Origin: Solobacterium sp.
Lineage (GTDB): Bacteria > Bacillota_I > Bacilli_A > Erysipelotrichales > Erysipelotrichaceae
Length of the DNA stretch: 64,000 nucleotides
Assembly: GCA_017512725.1 (NCBI GenBank)
Contig: JAFWEW010000035.1
Location: 62,001 to 126,000 of the forward strand
Direction of reading: 5' to 3'
Shown: positions 2,086 through 37,087 of the stretch, in pieces
Numbering within the stretch: the stretch's first letter is position 1
How the letters are laid out: the number at the start of each line of letters is the position of its first letter
Notes under the pieces: model-generated
Databases searched by the model: none
The model's input: only the letters and a program-made list of their open reading frames with translations
What the model was told of the DNA's origin: nothing
Translations under genes and position numbers: made by a program

Positions 2086-2938
2086 GATGTTTCACCTGCT
2101 TTGCGATCGCACGGGCAAATACGGGGAGTGTGCGAATATCGTCTGTGAGCGCAAATCCCTTCTCTTTCAGCATATCTTTCATCCGGATCAGTGCGGGCGG
2201 CAGGATATTCAGTGAATCACAGTAAGAAGAATCTTTGAAAAAATCCTGCACGGACGTATGGATGGTCGGTTTCCCGTTTTCCATGACGACCACCTCATCA
2301 CAGTATCCGAATACCTGTTCCATATCATGTGTAACCATGATAATCGTCGTTCCGTGGATCTTGTTCAGGTCCCGGAACAGCCGCATCATCTCCAGTGCAC
2401 CCTGCGGATCCAGACCGGCTGTCGGTTCATCCAGCACCAGAATATCCGGGTCCATTGCCAGAATTCCCGCGATTGCCACGCGGCGCTTCTGACCGCCGGA
2501 AAGCTCCAGCGGGGAACGCTGTTCATATTCTTTATCCAGACCGACCATGCGCAGTGCATTGGAGGCTTTCTCTTCCGCTTCCTTGACAGGCACACCAAAA
2601 TTCTTCGGTCCAAACGAAATATCCTTCAGTACGGTTTCCTCAAACAGCTGATACTCCGGAAACTGGAAAACCAGTCCGACTTTCTTGCGAAGCTTCTTGA
2701 GCCCCTTTGCGTCCTGTCCTGCCTTCAGCTGCCAGTCATCTACGATCACGGTTCCCGATGTCGGAAGCAGCAGGGCATTCAGATGCTGAACAAGCGTGCT
2801 CTTGCCGGAACCGGTCCGCCCGATTACCGCAGTAAAAGCACCTTCCCGGAATTCCAGATCCACATCTTCAAGGGCTACATACCGGAACGGTGTGCCTTCG
2901 CTGTAGATATGACTTACCTTTTCGAATTTAATCGGCAC
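2078..2938 (-). CDS. ecfA2: ECF transporter ATPase EcfA2
   Basis: One of the two ABC ATPases driving group II ECF vitamin uptake. The 286-residue protein shows Walker A GRTGSGKST, Q-loop VFQFPEYQLF, signature LSGGQKRR and Walker B LVLDEPTAGLDPQG, followed by the switch histidine in MVTHDMEQV. All active-site elements are complete. It begins 25 bases inside the end of ecfA1 and overlaps ecfT by 8 bases, so the three subunits are translationally coupled. Assignment as A2 rather than A1 rests on gene order and the FPEYQLFEETV sequence typical of EcfA2. Confidence 0.93.
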   Translation of the reverse strand: MPIKFEKVSHIYSEGTPFRYVALEDVDLEFREGAFTAVIGRTGSGKSTLVQHLNALLLPTSGTVIVDDWQLKAGQDAKGLKKLRKKVGLVFQFPEYQLFEETVLKDISFGPKNFGVPVKEAEEKASNALRMVGLDKEYEQRSPLELSGGQKRRVAIAGILAMDPDILVLDEPTAGLDPQGALEMMRLFRDLNKIHGTTIIMVTHDMEQVFGYCDEVVVMENGKPTIHTSVQDFFKDSSYCDSLNILPPALIRMKDMLKEKGFALTDDIRTLPVFARAIAKQVKHHG

Positions 2939-3741
2939 AGTTCTTCCACCAGTCCTTCCATTGTGATCGCAGGCGTTACGGTTAACCCTTCTTTGCGAAG
3001 CTGTTCCTGAAGCCGCAGTGCAAACGGCAGCTCCAGACGGATCTTTTTCAGTTCCTCCGGTTTCGCAAATACTTCTTCCGGGGTTCCGGTCAGCGCAACC
3101 CGCCCTTTATTCATTGCGATTACGTAATCGCTCTTTACCACTTCTTCAATATCATGCGTGATCGAAAGGATCGTCAGTCCCCGGTCTTCATGAAGTTCGC
3201 TGATCAGATTCTTGATTCGGTCCTTTCCCTGCGGATCCAGCATCGAGGTTGCCTCATCAAATATGATGATATCCGGATGCATCGCCATTACACCCGCAAT
3301 CGCAACCCGCTGTTTCTGTCCGCCGGAAAGCCGTGTCGGTTCATGGTCCAGGTATTTGGTCATATGAACCTTTTCTGCGAATTCCTCGATAATCGCATCC
3401 ATATCCTTCTGTTCCACACAGTGATTTTCCAGTCCAAAGGCAATATCGTCCCTTACGGTGGAACCAATGAACTGGTTGTCCGGATTCTGGAACACGATAC
3501 CGATCCGTCTCCGGATTTCCCGGAGATTTTCTTCATTCAGTTCAAGCCCGTCAATCAGGATCGTTCCGCTTTTCTTTTCCAGAAGACCTGCGACCAGTTT
3601 GGCAACGGTTGATTTTCCGCTGCCGTTATGACCGATGATCGTTGTATAGCTTCCCTTCTCCACGGAAAAGGTGACATCATCTGCCGCGTTCTTTTCCTGA
3701 TCATAGGAGAATGTCAGATTTTTAACTTCTACTGCTTTCAT
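2914..3741 (-). CDS. ecfA1: ECF transporter ATPase EcfA1
   Basis: First gene of the ecfA1-ecfA2-ecfT-truA operon and partner ATPase of EcfA2. The 275-residue protein has Walker A GHNGSGKST, Q-loop VFQNPDNQFIGS, signature LSGGQKQR and Walker B IIIFDEATSMLDPQG, with switch His in SITHDIEEV. The start MKAVEVKNLTFSY at 3741 was chosen because a GAGGA box lies just upstream and the ABC fold begins there; the open frame extends further but without family similarity. A promoter (3764-3791) lies 23 bases upstream. Confidence 0.94.
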   Translation of the reverse strand: MKAVEVKNLTFSYDQEKNAADDVTFSVEKGSYTTIIGHNGSGKSTVAKLVAGLLEKKSGTILIDGLELNEENLREIRRRIGIVFQNPDNQFIGSTVRDDIAFGLENHCVEQKDMDAIIEEFAEKVHMTKYLDHEPTRLSGGQKQRVAIAGVMAMHPDIIIFDEATSMLDPQGKDRIKNLISELHEDRGLTILSITHDIEEVVKSDYVIAMNKGRVALTGTPEEVFAKPEELKKIRLELPFALRLQEQLRKEGLTVTPAITMEGLVEELCRLNSKR

Positions 3742-3763
3742 TTCATTCCTCAGAATCCAGTAA

Positions 3764-3791
3764 ATTATAACAATCCTGCCGTTATTTACAA
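3764..3791 (-). promoter_or_regulatory. Promoter of the ecf-truA operon
   Basis: On the minus strand TTGTAA (3786-3791) and a perfect TATAAT (3764-3769) are spaced by 16 bases, giving a predicted start near 3757, about 16 bases before the ecfA1 ATG. In many Bacillota the ecf genes follow rplQ in the ribosomal operon; here they have their own promoter. Confidence 0.6.
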
Positions 3792-3879
3792 AGATATCCG
3801 CGTCATTCCGCATCCTGCAGGTGCTTTGTACCTCCCTGTACCGCAAAAAACCTTTGCCCTTTTATCAGCAATACATAAG

Positions 3880-3927
3880 AAAAAGCAATAACTCACCGGA
3901 CCGTAATCCCGTGCGTCATTGCCTTTT
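3880..3927 (-). terminator. Possible terminator after the GntP permease gene
   Basis: The arms 3880-3892 and 3915-3927 pair over 13 positions with two G-T wobbles, around a 22-base loop. On the minus strand the hairpin is followed by a short T-rich run. It lies 30-75 bases past the permease stop. The large loop makes it a weak candidate. Confidence 0.4.
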
Positions 3928-3955
3928 CCTGTAATACGTGCAGAGCGTATTCGGA

Positions 3956-5320
3956 TTAATACAGGAAGCCGATGCTTGCCAGTGCGACAAGCAGGGCAGC
4001 TGCGATCAGGGTGAATACCACCGTGATCATGAAGATGTATTTATAGGAGCTGCTGTGTGTTTCCTGGCATACATCAAGTGTTGCCAGGATCCCGCCGCAG
4101 TGCGGAAGCGAATCCAGTCCGCAGCTCGATACGGAAATAATCCGATGGAGCGCCCCAAGCTGCGCAGGCGTGGTCAGCTGACTCGTCCAGCTTTGAACGA
4201 GTTTCTCCGAAGAGAGCGCAATATTGATTCCCCCGGAAGCACTTCCGGTTACACCTGCAAGCAGGGTGACGGAAAGTGCCGCAGAAAGATATGGATTCAT
4301 ATTCAGGTTCGTAACCGCATTGACGAGGCTTTCATAGCCCGCCGTGGAAGAGATTACCTTTCCGAAGCCGACAACGATCGAAAAGCTGAGCAGCGGTCCG
4401 ATCCACTCTTTCGCCCCGTTCAGAACGGAATCCGCAACCGTTTTCCGGTTCCCCATCACCGTTCCAAGAATCAGAAGATAAAAAATCGCAATGATCATAG
4501 CCGTACATACCGGTGCATAGGGGTTCGCATTCTTCAGCTGGTAGCCGCCAAACGAGACTCGCTCAAAGATCATATAGAGAACGATAAGCATGATAATCGG
4601 AAGAAAGGCAAAGAACGGTTTGGGAAGATCTTCTCCGGAAAGTTCGGATACACTGCCCGGCCGCAGGGCATTCTCATCGAAGCCCTCCCCGCGCTCCCGG
4701 CTCTTTTTCACTTCATGTTTCAGATAGAAATAGCCAAGTCCGAACATGACGAGCGTTGCGATGATGCCAAGTACCGGAGCCGCCGTGGATGTCGTTCCAA
4801 GATAGGCCGTCGGAATAATATTGTTGAGCTGCGGGGTTCCGGGAAGCGCAGTCAGCGCAAACGTTGCCTGGCCAAGCTGAATGATTGCCGGAAGCAGGGT
4901 CTTGGAGATATTCGCCTTGCGACAGAGGGAGACACCAAGCGGAAATACGGTAAAAGCCACGACCATCGCAGTTACTCCGCCGTATACAAGCAGTGCGGTC
5001 GTAACCGAAATGACAAGGATCACAGACTCTTTGCCGAACAGCTTCATAAAGAATTCCGCGATCGCATTGGCGCATCCGGTATCCGACATCAGCTTTCCGT
5101 AGATCGTCGCAAAGAAGAAGATCGGAAAATAGGTTCCGAATGTTCCGCCGATCCCTCCGAACAGGGTGGTAAGTGCTGCCCAGGGATCCGTCGGATTGAA
5201 TATCATGACGACAAACGTCGCCGCAAGTGCCGCAAGGATCGCCGGGATCCGCTTATAGATCAGGATCGACAATACCGCAAGGCCCAGCACCAGGCCCGCG
5301 ATTCCCATAACATTAGACAT
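3956..5320 (-). CDS. GntP-family gluconate/hydroxy-acid permease
   Basis: A 454-residue, highly hydrophobic protein with about 12 membrane segments, similar to the GntP family of proton-coupled gluconate or hydroxy-acid importers. The conserved ALPGTPQLNNIIPT stretch (about 155-170) and the GVTGSASGGINIAL and CGLDSLPHCGGI motifs near the C-terminus support the family. It lies downstream of, and on the same strand as, a metallo-beta-lactamase-fold hydrolase, with a TetR-type regulator divergent to both. This suggests a small regulated module in which the hydrolase could open a lactone or ester related to the imported acid. The actual substrate cannot be read from the sequence. Confidence 0.85.
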   Translation of the reverse strand: MSNVMGIAGLVLGLAVLSILIYKRIPAILAALAATFVVMIFNPTDPWAALTTLFGGIGGTFGTYFPIFFFATIYGKLMSDTGCANAIAEFFMKLFGKESVILVISVTTALLVYGGVTAMVVAFTVFPLGVSLCRKANISKTLLPAIIQLGQATFALTALPGTPQLNNIIPTAYLGTTSTAAPVLGIIATLVMFGLGYFYLKHEVKKSRERGEGFDENALRPGSVSELSGEDLPKPFFAFLPIIMLIVLYMIFERVSFGGYQLKNANPYAPVCTAMIIAIFYLLILGTVMGNRKTVADSVLNGAKEWIGPLLSFSIVVGFGKVISSTAGYESLVNAVTNLNMNPYLSAALSVTLLAGVTGSASGGINIALSSEKLVQSWTSQLTTPAQLGALHRIISVSSCGLDSLPHCGGILATLDVCQETHSSSYKYIFMITVVFTLIAAALLVALASIGFLY

Positions 5321-27904: not shown

Positions 27905-30900
27905 TCATTCTTTTGCGAGTCTCATCATACAATCGGCAACAGATCTTCCAAACCGTTCCATGGAAGCTTCGTCATATATACACTTGTTATAGTTGATGAA
28001 CATAATCAGCTGATTCTCTTTTTTAGCAGGATAAAGCACGCATTCTGCGGCTGCCGGTGAAGTAACACGATAATCCCACATGGGAATATCATAGGATCCC
28101 GGAGTGATAGATGTATTAATCTCGATTCCGTCTTCGCAGATCATGTTTATAGTCTCCTGTTTACTGGGAGAGTTGTCATAAAGCGCGAAGGAAAGGTCAG
28201 AATAAATGATGCTGTCTATGATCTGTGCGCTGACTTCCTTCATCAGATTGAGTTCAGGACGGCTGAAGTCGATGGCGATGGGGTGTGCACTCATCGTGAT
28301 TCCGATAATATTCTCTTTCCACGGTTCATCTCTTCCGTTATAGATCCACTGTACCTGAACCTTATCCGTATTGTTATATTCCTTCATAGCCAGAAGCCCG
28401 GCAGTGGAATACAGCATACCGAGACTGATACTCTTTCCCTGCAGTGCATCCATCAAATCGGTGAATGAATAACTGAAAGGAACTTTCAGAATATGAATCT
28501 GATTATCCCGGCTCTGATGATCCACCCGCGGCATCCGTTCAAAAGAAGGCAGATTATATATTTTTTTCAGCCTCTCGAGTTCTTTCTCTGCTTCTTTCCG
28601 GTTCGCAAAGATTTCATGCTGACGGAGAAATTCGAAGTAGAGGTCTTTCTCTGGCGGTTCACCGTGCAGTACACGAATGATATTCTTTATCACCAAACTG
28701 ATGCTTGTTCCATCAATGATACTGTGATGGAAATCCATAAAGAGATAGACAGTGGTTTCCGTGACATAGATGGCGCATCGATACATCAGCGAGTTGATCA
28801 CTTTGTGGGGTTTCAGCAGATGAGGGAGGATCTCGATTTTAAAGACGTTGTCAGAAGTATTGATAATTTCAACAGGCTGAATCCGTTCCGGTGCATACCG
28901 CTGAACAAACCCTTCATCCGCAAACGTGAAAATCATTCCAAAAATGGAGAAATGATGCAGGACGGTATCAACCGCACGTTTCAGTTCCTCTGGTTCGATT
29001 TCGGAACGCGGCATAGCTTTGAGAATCGGTACATTCGTTCCGTCTCCTTTGGGAGTATAAAGCTGGTAGTCTACATAATACCGCTGATACGGCAGAAGGG
29101 GATACGATGTCGGTGAACCGGCAGAAAGCTCTGTTTTAGCCTGCAGAGCAGACTGCTCCATAAGCGCTTCTGCCAGCCTTCGCGGTGTCTTCAGCGCAAA
29201 GATATCCTTCATGGTGATGTTAAGATCGTTGAGGTTTGCTACAGCCTGCATCGCAAGCATCGATGTTCCACCAATCTCAGAGAACTCGTCATCCGGATCA
29301 ACCGAAGGAAGATCAAGCACTTCCGCAAAGACATTCTGGATTCTCTGCTCAATTGTATTTGAATCCCGGCTTTGGACCATCTCTGCCAGTCTGCGCGGTG
29401 TCTTCAGCGCAAAGATATCCTTCATGGTAATGTTAAGATCGTTGAGGTTTGCTACAGCCTGCATCGCAAGCATCGATGTTCCGCCAATCTCAGAGAACTC
29501 GTCATCCGGATCAACCGAAGGAAGATCGAGCACTTCCGCAAAGACACTCTGAATTCTCTTTTCACTGACGTTCGGCTCCGCGAATTCGCCAGTGCTGTGT
29601 TCCGCCGATGTTTTTTTGCGAAGACTTACGGCGTCGATTTTTCGCTGCTTCAGAGCCTGCAGATCTGCTTTACCGCGTGCATTTCGCGGCATCTCCTCCA
29701 AATGAATGAAGTAGTCGGGAATCATATAATCCGCCAGATACTTTTCTGCATGCTTTTTCAGTTCCTTTTGTTCAAATATGCGGCCGATGTAGTAACAGCA
29801 GAGACGTGCCGCATTCTGCACATTCACCTCAACTGTTTTTGACTCGTTAATACCGTCACATCGGCACATCACATTATCAATCTCGTCGAGTTCAACACGC
29901 TGGCCTCGGATTTTGACCATACGATCCTTTCGGCCATGAAAAACCAGATCCCCATTTAAGTCGTAGGCCATGTAGTCTCCTGTATGGTAAACCTGTTTTC
30001 CGGATTCATGGCTGAATTTTTTGCTCGTTTCTTCCGGCATATTGTGGTATTCCGTTGCCATGTAAGGGCTGATGATGCACAATTCACCGATGGTGTCGGG
30101 TTCGGTTATCGTCTGGCCGTTTTCATCTTTCAGAAACGCGGTTACTCCTTTAAATGGCTTCCCCAGCACAGCAGGGCCTCCTTGTCCGAGCGGATTGGCA
30201 AGCATAGTCGGACATTCACTTGCCCCGTAAAATTCGAAGACATCAGAATCGCCATACATATGCTGCGGCATCGCTTTTTCTCCGGATACAAAGAGATAAT
30301 CAACCGGAAGAACTCCGAATATCTGGCGCATTGTTCCGTACATTGTAGGCGGCATGAAAATTCCGGATATCCGATTGGTTTTCATGATCTCATAAAGCAG
30401 GTTGATATCTTTCCGTTCCGTTTCATTTGCGATATAAAGACTGCCGCCGTAATAAAGCGGAGGGGTCAGATCCATCAGAGAAGCGGCAAATGTGAACATT
30501 GCGATACACAACGTATTCGTCTTACTGGAAAGGGGAACTAACTGCGGCAGTAACACCGGGTATGCGTCAAGAATACGCTGTTGGTGTACGACACCTTTTG
30601 GGGTTCCGGTAGAACCGGAAGTATAGTAAATCATTCCTTCCGCATCCGGATCAGAATGATTCAGATCCAGATCAGCTGCCGGCAGTTCTGTTCCCTCAGG
30701 AAATACCTTGTCAAGAAGAATCGTCGAAACATCTCCCGGAACATGTTCTGACAGAGCTTCTGTTGTCAGACACAGGGGGCATTGTGCATCCTTCAGTATT
30801 GTGGAAATCCGTTCAGCAGGATATTCACTGGAAAGAGGAATTGCTGTGCAGCCTGCCCGCAAAACACCCAGCCACGCCGCAATATAATCCTTTGTTCTGG

Positions 30901-31084
30901 GAAGAAGGAGGGCGATTCTTCCTGTTGTTTCACCTGGTTTCAGTGCGTCGAGAATAATCTTTGCAAGATATGCAGAACGATGATTCAGTTCACCGTAACT
31001 GTAGACCCCCTCACAATCCAGTACTGCAGGAGAATCCGGATTCTGCTTGGCCTGCAGTATAAATGCATCGATAAAATGATTCAT
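27905..31084 (-). CDS. NRPS-like protein with A-T-T-C domain order
   Basis: A 1059-residue single-gene assembly protein. The adenylation domain (1-500) has YYTSGSTGTPKGVVHQ, FYGASECP, YHTGDYMAYDLNGDLVFHGR and the catalytic Lys in MPRNARGKADL. Two carrier domains follow, with phosphopantetheine serines near 536 and 607 in IGGTSMLAMQ; they are nearly identical. The C-terminal part (about 650-1059) is a condensation-type domain with HHSIIDG near 785, matching HHxxxDG. There is no thioesterase. A loaded amino or hydroxy acid would be passed to an acceptor by the C domain. It is co-transcribed with a MATE exporter. Substrate not predictable by eye. Confidence 0.88.
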   Translation of the reverse strand: MNHFIDAFILQAKQNPDSPAVLDCEGVYSYGELNHRSAYLAKIILDALKPGETTGRIALLLPRTKDYIAAWLGVLRAGCTAIPLSSEYPAERISTILKDAQCPLCLTTEALSEHVPGDVSTILLDKVFPEGTELPAADLDLNHSDPDAEGMIYYTSGSTGTPKGVVHQQRILDAYPVLLPQLVPLSSKTNTLCIAMFTFAASLMDLTPPLYYGGSLYIANETERKDINLLYEIMKTNRISGIFMPPTMYGTMRQIFGVLPVDYLFVSGEKAMPQHMYGDSDVFEFYGASECPTMLANPLGQGGPAVLGKPFKGVTAFLKDENGQTITEPDTIGELCIISPYMATEYHNMPEETSKKFSHESGKQVYHTGDYMAYDLNGDLVFHGRKDRMVKIRGQRVELDEIDNVMCRCDGINESKTVEVNVQNAARLCCYYIGRIFEQKELKKHAEKYLADYMIPDYFIHLEEMPRNARGKADLQALKQRKIDAVSLRKKTSAEHSTGEFAEPNVSEKRIQSVFAEVLDLPSVDPDDEFSEIGGTSMLAMQAVANLNDLNITMKDIFALKTPRRLAEMVQSRDSNTIEQRIQNVFAEVLDLPSVDPDDEFSEIGGTSMLAMQAVANLNDLNITMKDIFALKTPRRLAEALMEQSALQAKTELSAGSPTSYPLLPYQRYYVDYQLYTPKGDGTNVPILKAMPRSEIEPEELKRAVDTVLHHFSIFGMIFTFADEGFVQRYAPERIQPVEIINTSDNVFKIEILPHLLKPHKVINSLMYRCAIYVTETTVYLFMDFHHSIIDGTSISLVIKNIIRVLHGEPPEKDLYFEFLRQHEIFANRKEAEKELERLKKIYNLPSFERMPRVDHQSRDNQIHILKVPFSYSFTDLMDALQGKSISLGMLYSTAGLLAMKEYNNTDKVQVQWIYNGRDEPWKENIIGITMSAHPIAIDFSRPELNLMKEVSAQIIDSIIYSDLSFALYDNSPSKQETINMICEDGIEINTSITPGSYDIPMWDYRVTSPAAAECVLYPAKKENQLIMFINYNKCIYDEASMERFGRSVADCMMRLAKE
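29169..29346 (-). repeat. Carrier-domain DNA repeat, copy B (second carrier)
   Basis: 178 bases nearly identical to 29382-29559, at an offset of 213 bases (71 codons). It encodes the second carrier domain of the NRPS-like protein. The few differences are mostly silent, which points to a recent in-frame tandem duplication or continuing gene conversion. Confidence 0.9.
29382..29559 (-). repeat. Carrier-domain DNA repeat, copy A (first carrier)
   Basis: Partner of 29169-29346; encodes the first carrier domain. The 35-base stretch between the copies encodes a short linker. Confidence 0.9.
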
Positions 31085-32424: not shown

Positions 32425-32453
32425 TTGAAGCGGGATTTTTGAAATTTTATATT
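32425..32453 (+). promoter_or_regulatory. Promoter of the RiPP precursor
   Basis: TTGAAG (32425-32430) and TATATT (32448-32453) are separated by 17 bases. Transcription should start near 32460, a few bases before the GGAGGA box at 32466-32471. Confidence 0.6.
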
Positions 32454-32477
32454 ATGGATAAGAGCGGAGGAATACCT

Positions 32478-32855
32478 ATGTCAATGGATCATGCGAAACA
32501 GTTTCTCGAAAAGATGATGAATGATGAAACGCTCCATAAAAAAGTCAGTAATGAAGAACCCGAAAGAGTTGCGGCGATCGCGGCGGAACTGGGATATGAG
32601 TTTACCTCGAAAGAACTGGAACGGGCGCTGAAAGAGCTGCGAAATACAACGGGACAGACACCGGAAAAACTGAGCTCGGAGGAAATGAATCTCATAACCG
32701 GAAGTGGAATCTGGGATGGTGAAGATGCACCGGACGGACATGAAATGGGATGCTTTATTTCCTATCACCGCAGAGACTGGTCCTATGAAAACGATATCTA
32801 CTGCAAGCAGATGTACTGGTGCGTCAGAAATCACTGGGGCGGAGCTGCCTTTTGA
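32478..32855 (+). CDS. Nif11-leader RiPP precursor peptide
   Basis: A 125-residue precursor of a ribosomally made, modified peptide. The leader (1-77) starts MSMDHAKQFLEKMMNDETLHKK and includes ELGYEFTSKELERAL, the Nif11-like pattern. It ends in LSSEEMNLITGSG, the site where a double-glycine type protease would cut. The core of about 48 residues is rich in Trp, Tyr, His, Asp and Gly with three Cys (in HEMGCF, DIYCKQ and YWCVRN). GGAGGA lies 6 bases before the ATG. Its stop overlaps the TTG start of the radical SAM maturase. No peptidase-transporter is adjacent, and the mature product is unknown. Confidence 0.88.
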   Translation: MSMDHAKQFLEKMMNDETLHKKVSNEEPERVAAIAAELGYEFTSKELERALKELRNTTGQTPEKLSSEEMNLITGSGIWDGEDAPDGHEMGCFISYHRRDWSYENDIYCKQMYWCVRNHWGGAAF

Positions 32856-34294
32856 AATACATCCTTGATCAGAGATATCGCTTACGCGGCTGGCACGGAA
32901 GTCCGTATGGCATATATGACACAAAGACAGGGAAAGTGCAGTTTCTTCCTGAAGCCTTATATCATGTCCTGATGCTCTGTGATGCGTGCAGGAGATGGAT
33001 GCTGAATTTCTTTCACCGGAAGAAAAATCCTTTCTTATGAACCTGCAGGAAAAAAAGATCATTCAATCGGCCGGCCGATTGGATTTCCTGACGGAAAAGC
33101 AGAGGTATCATGCTTATCCCGCCCGGTACCGTAAAAACGCGCACTGGTCTTTGACCGGCGCATGCAACATGAGATGCCGCCACTGCTTCATGTCCGCACC
33201 TCATAAAAAACACGTCGTGCCGGAATTGAAAGAACTCCTGAACATCGCGGAACAGCTCGCGGAATGCGGCGTGTTTTCTGTGGGACTCACCGGAGGCGAA
33301 CCCCTGATGCGGGAAGATTTCGGAGAGATCGTCGAAGCGCTGAGCACCCGGGAAATCCGGATTACGGAGATCTATACCAACGGCTGGCTCGTGAACGAAG
33401 CCCTTCTGAACATGCTTGAAAGAAATGGGCAGCGCCCGTCTTTTCAGTTAAGTTATAACGGAAAGGGAATGCATGATTATCTCCGCGGAATTCCCGGAGC
33501 GGAAGAAAGAGTGACTGAAGCACTGAAGCTTATGAATCAAAGGAACTTCCGGACCTCGGTTTCGATGTGTCTTCATCGGAAAAACAAGGATACCCCGAAA
33601 GATACCGTCAGCTATCTTGCGGATCTTGGGGTATCTGCTTTCAAGTGCAGTTCAATCATGGAACTCGGCGAATGGACAAATGCCGAAACGGAAAAACTGC
33701 GCCTGAGCCGGCAGGAAGAGCTGGAAGTATATGAGCAATATATTCCCCAGTATTTTGCGGAGAATGCGCCGCTGTCTCTCGAACTCTCTGGTGCCTTTCT
33801 GTATGAGAGGGGAATGAATCGGTGGCACAGTTTCTACCATCGGGAATGCTCGAAGGACCGGGAAGCGAAGATGCCGGCTTGTTCAAGCCTGCGCATGGCG
33901 TTTTATATCGGACCGGACGGTGTTGTGGCGTCCTGCCAGGGAATGTGTGACTGTAATTTTGCGAAGAATTTTCCGAAATCTGAAGGAGAAACCGCTGCGG
34001 GAGATCCTGACGGATTCAAAGTATGTAAGCCTCAGCCATGCCACCGTCAGGGATGTGCGGAACGGCAATGAGGACTGCCGCAGATGCGAGTACAGAGATC
34101 GCTGTGCGGGAGGCTGCCGGAATGCGGCACTGATCCACGGGGACAATTACTTCGGCCCGGATCCCGATGCCTGTTGGTTTTTCAAAAACGGCTGGGAGGA
34201 GCGGATCAAAAACGCTGCACAGCCGTCGTTTGAAGCCTACCGAAACCGCTGCCCGGAAGCGTTTGTTCCCTTGAAGGAAGAGGATCCTTTCTGA
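32852..34294 (+). pseudogene. Nif11-class radical SAM/SPASM peptide maturase, broken by two frameshifts
   Basis: Three overlapping reading frames together make one maturase of about 480 residues. Part 1 (TTG at 32852 to about 32987) encodes LKYILDQRYRLRGWHG, the usual N-terminus. Part 2 (about 32988-33975) holds the Fe-S motif CNMRCRHC, VGLTGGEPLMRED, and the start of the SPASM region CQGMCDCNF. Part 3 (about 33979-34294) carries the rest of SPASM (CRRCEYRDRCAGGCRN and DPDACW). A base seems missing near 32988 and one A added at 33976-33978. The sequence is otherwise well preserved, so the breaks are recent, or sequencing errors, and the enzyme would otherwise modify the Nif11 precursor. Confidence 0.75.
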
Positions 34295-34423
34295 ATGATT
34301 TGATTTGCGGAACACCTTGCTGTATATCAATACAGCCTGAAAGATGATGAAGGACTGACATTGTTATTCTTTTATATGAGCAGGAACCGGCCGCGGTACT
34401 GTTCCCAGGGAAAAGGAAGGGAT

Positions 34424-35545
34424 ATGATCGGCATTGATATTCGATTTATGACGCGGGACATGCAGGATGGAATCATCAGCTCCGGAGTGGGGCTTTTCTG
34501 TGCGGAAGTTCTGAGCGGAATGAAGGAAGCCGACCGAAAAGGCATTGTCCTGATCGTAAATGCGGATCAGAGAAAAACTGCCGGGAAGCTGTTCGGTGAA
34601 TATAACGTGATTGAATTCAATCCTCTGAACCGGGGAAAATACCGAAAGGATCTGCGGGAGATTGATGAAAGAAGATATGACCGATTCCTGAAAATGCATC
34701 GGATTCGCTGTCTGTGGATTCCGTTTGCCAATCCGCATCATTTCTATACTGTCAGTATTCCGGTGATTTCAACCATCCATGATCTGATTACGATCCGCAA
34801 TGACCCCGACAATCTTACGTGGAAGCGGGCGTTTCAAAACATCATCGAAAAGAGCCGGAACATCATCACAGTTTCCGACTACGTGAGAAAAGACATCCTT
34901 CGCGAATTTGAAAGCACCGATCCAAATAAAATCACGGTCATCCCCTGTCCCGTTGTGGTCGGCGATGAAACGGAAGAAGTGAACGAATTGAAAGAGAGGG
35001 ACTATATTCTTGATGTGAATGCGTTTCTGAAACGAAAGAATGCGGTCACTCTGCTCAGAGCCTATGCCCTTTCCGGGCTGTCTTCCCGCTGTGATCTTGT
35101 CTTCTGCGGAGGTTATTACAGGGAAGACGTTCTTGAAGAATTAAAGGAAGCAACGGCGGAGCTAAGACTTGAAGAAAAAGTTCACATCTATCTTGCGGTT
35201 TCGATCAGAAAGAGAAACTGGCTTTTGAAAAATGCCGTCATGCTGGTGTCGCCTTCGCTCAGCGAAGGATTCGGAAGATCCCCGGTGGAGGCGGCGATAT
35301 GCAAAATCCCGGTGATCACAAGCATTTCAGATTCTCTGACGGAAGCAACACTCGGAATGGTTCATTACTACCGGGAAGCGGAGAATGCCGAACAGCTGTC
35401 GACAGTTCTGACGGAGTTATATGACAATCCGCCCGCAGAGGAAGAACTGCAGAGAATCTCTGCCGCCATGAAAGAAAGATATGACCCGGAACGGATTGCG
35501 GCTGCCTATATGAGCTTGTTTCGGCAGTATGATGCCGGGGAATGA
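34424..35545 (+). CDS. GT4-family (group 1) glycosyltransferase
   Basis: A 373-residue glycosyltransferase with GT-B fold. The C-terminal nucleotide-sugar site reads SPSLSEGFGRSPVEAAICKIPVITS, with the conserved Glu-x7-Glu spacing, and ISTIHDLITIRND near residue 120 is typical of mannosyl/rhamnosyl-type enzymes. The ATG at 34424 follows GGAAGGG. It lies 129 bases after the maturase on the same strand. A 7-bp hairpin (34319-34336, no T-run) lies between. Glycosylation of the RiPP product is possible but unproven; an envelope polysaccharide role is equally likely. Confidence 0.85.
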   Translation: MIGIDIRFMTRDMQDGIISSGVGLFCAEVLSGMKEADRKGIVLIVNADQRKTAGKLFGEYNVIEFNPLNRGKYRKDLREIDERRYDRFLKMHRIRCLWIPFANPHHFYTVSIPVISTIHDLITIRNDPDNLTWKRAFQNIIEKSRNIITVSDYVRKDILREFESTDPNKITVIPCPVVVGDETEEVNELKERDYILDVNAFLKRKNAVTLLRAYALSGLSSRCDLVFCGGYYREDVLEELKEATAELRLEEKVHIYLAVSIRKRNWLLKNAVMLVSPSLSEGFGRSPVEAAICKIPVITSISDSLTEATLGMVHYYREAENAEQLSTVLTELYDNPPAEEELQRISAAMKERYDPERIAAAYMSLFRQYDAGE

Positions 35546-35800: not shown

Positions 35801-37087
35801 ATGAAATCACAAACCACAAAAAAACCGCATACCGGCAGATACATCCTGCTTTGCCTGCTCGCAGTGCTGCTGATCTTTGGCACCATCTTTTCCCATTTTG
35901 GGGGACTTGGACCAGGGCAAAGCGCCGACAGGGAAGCCTTTGCCGTCTATGCTAAAGAGGTCCCGGATCTTGCATTGCCGGAACATACAAGGATCGCTGC
36001 ACTCGGTGAAGCGACGCATGGAAACAGTGAATTTCAGCAGCTGAAACGCACCGTATTTCAGAATCTGGCAGGGAAATACGGCATCCGTGCCTTCTGCCTG
36101 GAAGGCGATTACGGCGGCTGTGAAATGGTGAACCGGTATATTCACGGCGGTGAAGGAAGCGCAGAAGAAGCAGCTGCTGAGATCGGCTTTGCGATCTACC
36201 GTACGGAAGAAATGGCTGATCTGATCCGCTGGATGCGCGAATACAACGCGACCGCAGCCGAGGGAGAAGACCTGATCTTCTATGGCTTTGACATGCAGCG
36301 AAGCGATAAGGATTATGCCTGCCTGAAAGAAGCCTGCGCAAAAGCCGGCATTGATACCAGCAGGCTGGATCAGCTCTGGGATGCAGAAGCGGAATCCTTT
36401 TCAGAAACAGCCACGCTGGAAGAAAAGACCGCTGCTCTTACAGAGATCAAAGAACAGTTTGATCCGTCAGATTCTTATGGCATCCATGCGGCAGATATCC
36501 TGCTGCAGAACGGTAAGATCTTCGAAGAATACAATGCAGGAAGAAATCCCGTCGGGATGCGCGATCAGTTTATGACAGATAATGTCCTGTGGATGCTGAA
36601 ACAGGAAGAAGACCGGGGACATGAGTGTATCTTTGTCAGTGCCCATAACGGACATGTGGAACAGCTTGGCTCCTATGATGCGGATAACAAAGTCATGGGC
36701 AATCTGCTGGCAGATACGATCGGAAAAGATGCTTATTATGTGATTGGCACAGACTTTCAAAAGGCCACCGTCAACCTTCCCCTGCAGAGCGGAAAGCGCA
36801 TCACCCATACGTTCTATTCCCACGATCCTCTGGCAAATGCCGCAAAGCAGTGCGGATACGAAATGTGCTGGCTGGATTTCTCAGCGGTGAGCGAGAATTC
36901 TCCGCTTTATCCTGCGGTTCATGACTATTGCTGGATGGGAAGTCTCGGGGATAGTTATAATGCCCTGTTCATGACGTTTGTGCCGATGAGCTACCGCATC
37001 TATCGGTCTCCTGCCCTCACCTATGACAGTATGATCTTTGTAAGCAACGCACACCCCACGGTGATACAGGAAGTGCCGAATCAGTAG
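35801..37087 (+). CDS. Membrane-anchored erythromycin esterase-like protein
   Basis: A 428-residue protein. Residues about 13-31 form an N-terminal membrane anchor or signal (TGRYILLCLLAVLLIFGTIF). The rest is an erythromycin-esterase (Ere) family domain: ALGEATHGNSEF with His73, the acidic FCLEGDYGG near 100, a long helical middle, and FVSAHNGHVEQLG near 285. In EreA-type enzymes the two histidine/glutamate sites hydrolyse the macrolide lactone. Most family members have other, unknown substrates, and an extracellular location here argues against cytoplasmic antibiotic inactivation. It could act on a secreted lactone or ester in this accessory region. Confidence 0.85.
   Translation: MKSQTTKKPHTGRYILLCLLAVLLIFGTIFSHFGGLGPGQSADREAFAVYAKEVPDLALPEHTRIAALGEATHGNSEFQQLKRTVFQNLAGKYGIRAFCLEGDYGGCEMVNRYIHGGEGSAEEAAAEIGFAIYRTEEMADLIRWMREYNATAAEGEDLIFYGFDMQRSDKDYACLKEACAKAGIDTSRLDQLWDAEAESFSETATLEEKTAALTEIKEQFDPSDSYGIHAADILLQNGKIFEEYNAGRNPVGMRDQFMTDNVLWMLKQEEDRGHECIFVSAHNGHVEQLGSYDADNKVMGNLLADTIGKDAYYVIGTDFQKATVNLPLQSGKRITHTFYSHDPLANAAKQCGYEMCWLDFSAVSENSPLYPAVHDYCWMGSLGDSYNALFMTFVPMSYRIYRSPALTYDSMIFVSNAHPTVIQEVPNQ

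Follow-up and report, generated by a model that had tools for sequence, protein, structure and literature searches.

A probably decayed Nif11-leader RiPP locus of an unnamed radical-SAM/SPASM subfamily in Solobacterium

RiPP systems of the NHLP/Nif11 kind, with radical-SAM proteins and peptidase-ABC export, are known in anaerobes (PMC2887384, PMC4289311), and the cores of the NHLP/Nif11 cluster of Eggerthella lenta are 50-59 aa long (PMC4289311). The locus considered here lies in a 64-kb stretch of a Solobacterium sp. genome (the window), and its intact relatives resemble these systems in having a Nif11 leader of about 70 residues, a Gly-Gly site, radical-SAM proteins and an NHLM-type transporter. 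They differ in a maturase subfamily without an NCBIfam equivalog and in a core signature of their own (DGHE..C), while the window copy differs further in its broken maturase and in having no linked transporter. On the best reading, the subfamily is an unnamed member of this already known kind of system, and we interpret the window locus, with a probability of about 0.72, as a Nif11-leader RiPP locus that has decayed and that belongs to this unnamed radical-SAM/SPASM subfamily.

PapA has six C-X3-D motifs and is not known to have a Nif11 leader. The PapB/freyrasin ranthipeptides, in which C-X3-D is the crosslinking motif of PapB (PMC9413430), share a radical-SAM/SPASM maturase with the locus and C-X3-D with two sibling core types (B and C, below), whereas the window's core type has C-X3-aromatic and the window core itself C-X3-Tyr, not C-X3-Asp; the PapB model scores 58.6 and 61.9 bits on family members against 340. 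Prochlorosins (PMC10783134) likewise have a Nif11-family leader and one enzyme beside many variable precursors, as in the relatives (up to 13), but their enzyme is the lanthipeptide synthetase ProcM rather than a radical-SAM enzyme, and the window holds a single precursor. With SkfB, SuiB and CteB, the modeled intact ortholog appears to share the overall fold, for SuiB and SkfB also across the N-terminal domain, although identity is about 17-19% and the substrates are unrelated.

Precursor gene and predicted core

The 5' part of the locus comprises the following features:

32425..32453, + strand: promoter-like site TTGAAG-17-TATATT (9/12 consensus positions; as frequent as chance predicts in the region)
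32466..32470, + strand: ribosome-binding site GGAGG, 7 nt 5' of the ATG (read directly)
32478..32855, + strand: Nif11-leader precursor, 125 aa (TIGR03798, PF07862; aligned with 18 relatives)
32706..32852, + strand: predicted core, 49 aa, GIWDGEDAPDGHEMGCFISYHRRDWSYENDIYCKQMYWCVRNHWGGAAF (core-type alignment, 49 peptides)

The precursor ORF runs in an intact frame from an ATG to a TGA at 32853-32855, and its leader scores above both curated cut-offs (TIGR03798, 56.7 bits, cut-off 32.3; PF07862, 50.3 bits, cut-off 23.8), which confirms the Nif11-like precursor of the preliminary description. Also confirmed are its three Cys (Cys92, Cys109 and Cys115) in a core rich in Cys, Trp and Tyr, and, as far as NCBIfam and Pfam go, the earlier remark that the core matches no recognized product, no model of either having matched the window core. 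By comparison with Gly-Gly relatives, we infer cleavage after Gly75-Ser76, which makes the core 49 residues long rather than the 48 counted earlier. The window precursor reads GS at this site, versus GG in the other 48 of the 49 aligned peptides of its core type; save for this Gly-Ser in place of Gly-Gly it is close to consensus, a point that we count against decay. Its Cys contexts are C-FIS-Y and C-KQM-Y, without the C-X3-D/E motif, and structure prediction yields a helical leader followed by a low-confidence core that has no fold. A lanthipeptide precursor was considered and rejected, TIGR03893 giving a weak match of 18.2 bits (cut-off 32.95) that is confined to the cleavage region. The promoter-like site is present, but calling it "clear" was an overstatement, because such sites are no commoner in the region than in shuffled sequence (4 observed versus a mean of 4.6).

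A maturase in three reading frames

Directly after the precursor, three ORFs hold consecutive parts of one maturase (recognition domain, radical-SAM core and SPASM domain) in different frames:

32852..33040, + strand: maturase fragment 1, N-terminal recognition (RRE-like) domain (42-64% identity to the N-termini of intact relatives)
32986..34071, + strand: maturase fragment 2, radical-SAM core with CX3CX2C (PF04055, 76 bits)
33920..34294, + strand: maturase fragment 3, C-terminal SPASM half (TIGR04085, 35.2 bits, cut-off 27)

Intact relatives begin at the position aligned with the TTG at 32852, a codon that overlaps the stop of the precursor, so the start and overlap given earlier stand, and what falls is the single radical-SAM/SPASM gene. 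Fragment 1 has 62 codons, of which about 45 are homologous (to near 32990) before it runs out of frame. Fragment 2, whose CX3CX2C motif reads CNMRCRHC, is 60% identical to the maturases of loci L076 and L041 and loses the homologous frame at about 33975; fragment 3 (57-73% identity to relatives) resumes the homology from about 33971, back in the original frame. With breaks near 32990 and 33975, radical-SAM and SPASM domains do not share a frame in the window as they do in intact relatives, and the window can make no enzyme joining the recognition, radical-SAM and SPASM domains, because these lie in different frames. The kind of locus was thus correctly recognized as a Nif11-leader RiPP locus with a radical-SAM/SPASM maturase; it is not the intact, "textbook" two-gene unit that had been described, because the maturase carries two frameshifts. 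Nor is the maturase of the TIGR04064 type, which had been named as a model to check: the SPASM fragment scores 24.4 bits against a cut-off of 518.7, and in none of nine intact relatives does TIGR04064 rank within the best 25 families.

The frameshifts are read from the single assembly of the species, with gene integrity judged on the window and the search results, and we clearly favor decay over assembly error, the break in the maturase being probably a real mutation. Substitutions at near-invariant maturase positions, which indel errors would not produce, number 5 of 87 in the window and 0 or 1 in its four closest relatives, although some deeper intact family members change 6-8 such positions, as many as the window does. 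They weigh, together with the atypical cleavage site, against the unlikely alternative that errors of assembly or sequencing created both frameshifts and that the organism has an intact maturase, leaving a working two-gene unit served by an NHLM transporter elsewhere in the genome. That the two shifts cancel, that all three parts are still 42-73% identical to intact relatives and that the precursor is intact speak for such errors; yet a non-exhaustive look through the 64-kb window revealed no second gene that is clearly split, and stops are infrequent across 59 ABC matches of the window genome. In the maturase tree, the end branch of the window (0.7) is the longest in its five-row clade. Contig C21 of this genome carries a second DGH locus of the window's core type (L071:8528-9526), which we also count for decay; it is a remnant in which a maturase without about its first 227 residues stands beside a shortened precursor (…APDGHDVGCDVAWYRPQF…). 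On the decay reading the window peptide, if expressed, is probably made but not matured, because the maturase is broken by two frameshifts.

The transporter on which the error reading draws is on contig C45, unlinked to the window locus, where a TIGR03796 peptidase/ABC exporter (ABC1; 923.3 bits, cut-off 853.3) forms a module with a sigma factor, a short HlyD-like gene and an ABC2 just under its cut-off (693.7 versus 709.4 bits). Two further loci were seen in this genome. Contig C12 encodes a second NHLM-like ABC1 (L166:9020-11203; 598.9 bits, under the cut-off), whose peptidase motif reads GGENGAAAL, as opposed to LECGAACL in the C45 copy, and whose catalytic Cys therefore appears to be missing. 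On contig C43 there is a third, distant Nif11/radical-SAM locus (L070:2312-4674) with a 463-aa maturase that is intact (26% identical) as well as a Fic-like gene and a small ORF resembling a leader.

Intact relatives, core types and predicted chemistry

A same-genus MAG and numerous MAGs from ruminant guts carry intact orthologs of about 480 aa and about 60% identity; the ortholog of the same-genus MAG (L041/L074; uncultured Erysipelotrichaceae bacterium RUG087) is a single ORF, 60% identical over the radical-SAM core. Locus L076 has an intact pair, with the precursor at 2842-3240 and the maturase at 3727-5133. Within the genus, the maturase family occurs in 11/70 genomes (up to 7 matches per genome), and a class-wide search at 1e-50 matched 4/395 genomes, the window's own included. 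A contig search gave 325 relatives, the best 80 of which were analyzed as loci and derive mostly from ruminant-gut Clostridia MAGs, with some from Coriobacteriia and others. Nif11-like precursors are present at 67 of these 80 loci, with up to 13 per locus, and the RiPP reading therefore stands against the proviso, made earlier, that orthologous loci might lack a leader gene next to the maturase. Exporter-type genes are likewise found at these loci (NHLM ABC1 at 29, ABC2 at 30, HlyD at 26 and a sigma factor at 13), all of these gene counts being lower bounds because many of the contigs are short. None of nine intact members has an NCBIfam equivalog (every score listed lies far below its cut-off, the best being about 115 bits against 400), and the literature searched, which did not include the main survey (Haft and Basu 2011), describes neither the window core nor any Nif11 radical-SAM system of the rumen. 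Carriage by plasmids or phages was considered and rejected, with one 30% match to an Agathobacter plasmid and none in phages. Loci L128 and L130, adjoining a distant relative of the maturase, contain arrays in which as many as 13 very short ORFs have a GG site (MSEEIKKEAQDVELNPEEL…VSGG) followed by a variable tail.

We distinguish three core types, and none of the cores tested matched an NCBIfam or Pfam model. The window's type A (49 distinct peptides) has the consensus W..[ED][ED]..DGHE..C...[YW]H...[YW]......[WY]C, in which the DG.[DE]..C letters are circular because the peptides were chosen by that pattern. Its noncircular features are a Trp near the core start (42/49), an aromatic residue four positions after the first Cys (42/49) with His next (33/49), and a second Cys (49/49) preceded by Trp or Tyr (44/49). 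Loci of the same maturase clade also carry types B (T[YF].D.ENCW.ND.CD) and C (CAATVE.GS.C..ND.C), sometimes next to one and the same maturase (L083, L088 and L089); at L089 a single maturase has both type A and type B beside it. A C-X3-[Asp or aromatic]-X-C motif is present in 23/53 type A peptides (shuffled mean 2.8, maximum 9) and in 16/24 of type C (shuffled mean 2.2, maximum 7), as well as in 26/26 of type B, a count that is partly circular because this type was picked by part of the motif. The C-terminus of one type C Nif11-leader precursor (L088:155-652) resembles a zinc ribbon (CPNCG…CPKCG), and similar CxxC pairs are seen at the ends of several sibling precursors.

The gene content of the intact relatives is observed directly, and each step of the following mechanism is modeled on known families. 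The Nif11 leader would dock on an RRE-like domain at the N-terminus of the maturase, whose radical-SAM core, together with the SPASM clusters, would then crosslink Cys and other core residues, and an NHLM-type C39-peptidase/ABC exporter would cut after Gly-Gly and export the product. By analogy with the C-X3-D motifs of the sibling cores, the crosslinks may be Cys thioethers, at somewhat less than even odds. It is a more tentative suggestion that the products of the subfamily form a class of crosslinked peptides not yet described. One enzyme would act on sibling C-X3-[Asp or aromatic]-X-C cores, joining Cys to Asp as thioethers in some of them and making a Cys-aromatic or another novel crosslink in the DGHE type, as an enzyme with a many-precursor library in ruminant-gut bacteria.

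An AlphaFold2 model of the intact ortholog (pLDDT 91.8, pTM 0.90) matches SkfB (Z 25.8, 346 residues, rmsd 4.5, model residues 8-427), anSME (Z 25.6, 345 residues, rmsd 3.8), SuiB (Z 24.6, 389 residues, rmsd 4.7) and CteB (Z 24.1, 324 residues, rmsd 3.9). The SuiB match spans model residues 2-442 and therefore takes in the N-terminal domain. The N-terminal 75 residues of the ortholog are likely a peptide-recognition domain (RRE), a likelihood rather than a proof because few structural matches (SuiB and SkfB) cover this domain.

A less probable alternative, for which we see little room, is that the small genes encode secreted proteins that bind metal or contain disulfides and carry a Nif11 leader, the radical-SAM enzyme acting on them in some other way or on another substrate. 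The conserved Cys and His of the core and the zinc-ribbon-like ends of some sibling precursors (L088) are in keeping with this, but it fits poorly with the linkage of precursor and maturase at 67/80 loci, with a single maturase beside up to 12-13 precursors, with a leader that is a RiPP leader, and with a window core predicted at low confidence and without a fold.

Downstream genes and significance

The next gene on the same strand is, as described earlier, a GT4 gene:

34424 (or 34361)..35545, + strand: GT4-type glycosyltransferase (PF00534, 68.7 bits)

We found no homolog of it at any of the related loci, and in the genus it has no close homolog, only 33-34% matches in 2/70 genomes; judged from the sequence comparisons, it is an incidental neighbor outside the RiPP unit, and the glycosylated peptide raised as a possibility earlier is not supported. 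That an intact two-gene unit makes a peptide which this enzyme also glycosylates is very improbable, since the maturase is broken and the glycosyltransferase is absent from related loci and without a close homolog in the genus, even if the domain is real and the gene follows on the same strand after a short gap.

Two other genes of the window deserve mention. An NRPS gene (27905-31084, - strand) contains a near-perfect tandem duplication at 29169-29559 (213-bp unit, 1.8 copies, 96% matches) that gives two almost identical carrier domains, either real or an assembly effect. The protein encoded at 35801-37087 belongs to the erythromycin-esterase family (PF05139, 148 bits), has a hydrophobic segment at its N-terminus and scores far below the EreB and EreD cut-offs.

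The window copy is probably dead, but through it we reach a radical-SAM RiPP subfamily of ruminant-gut bacteria that is sizeable and unnamed. The interest lies in the family and not in this copy. It also calls for caution, as precursor-based mining will report loci that have already lost their enzyme. For the family itself, the core signatures offer direct predictions for mass spectrometry.
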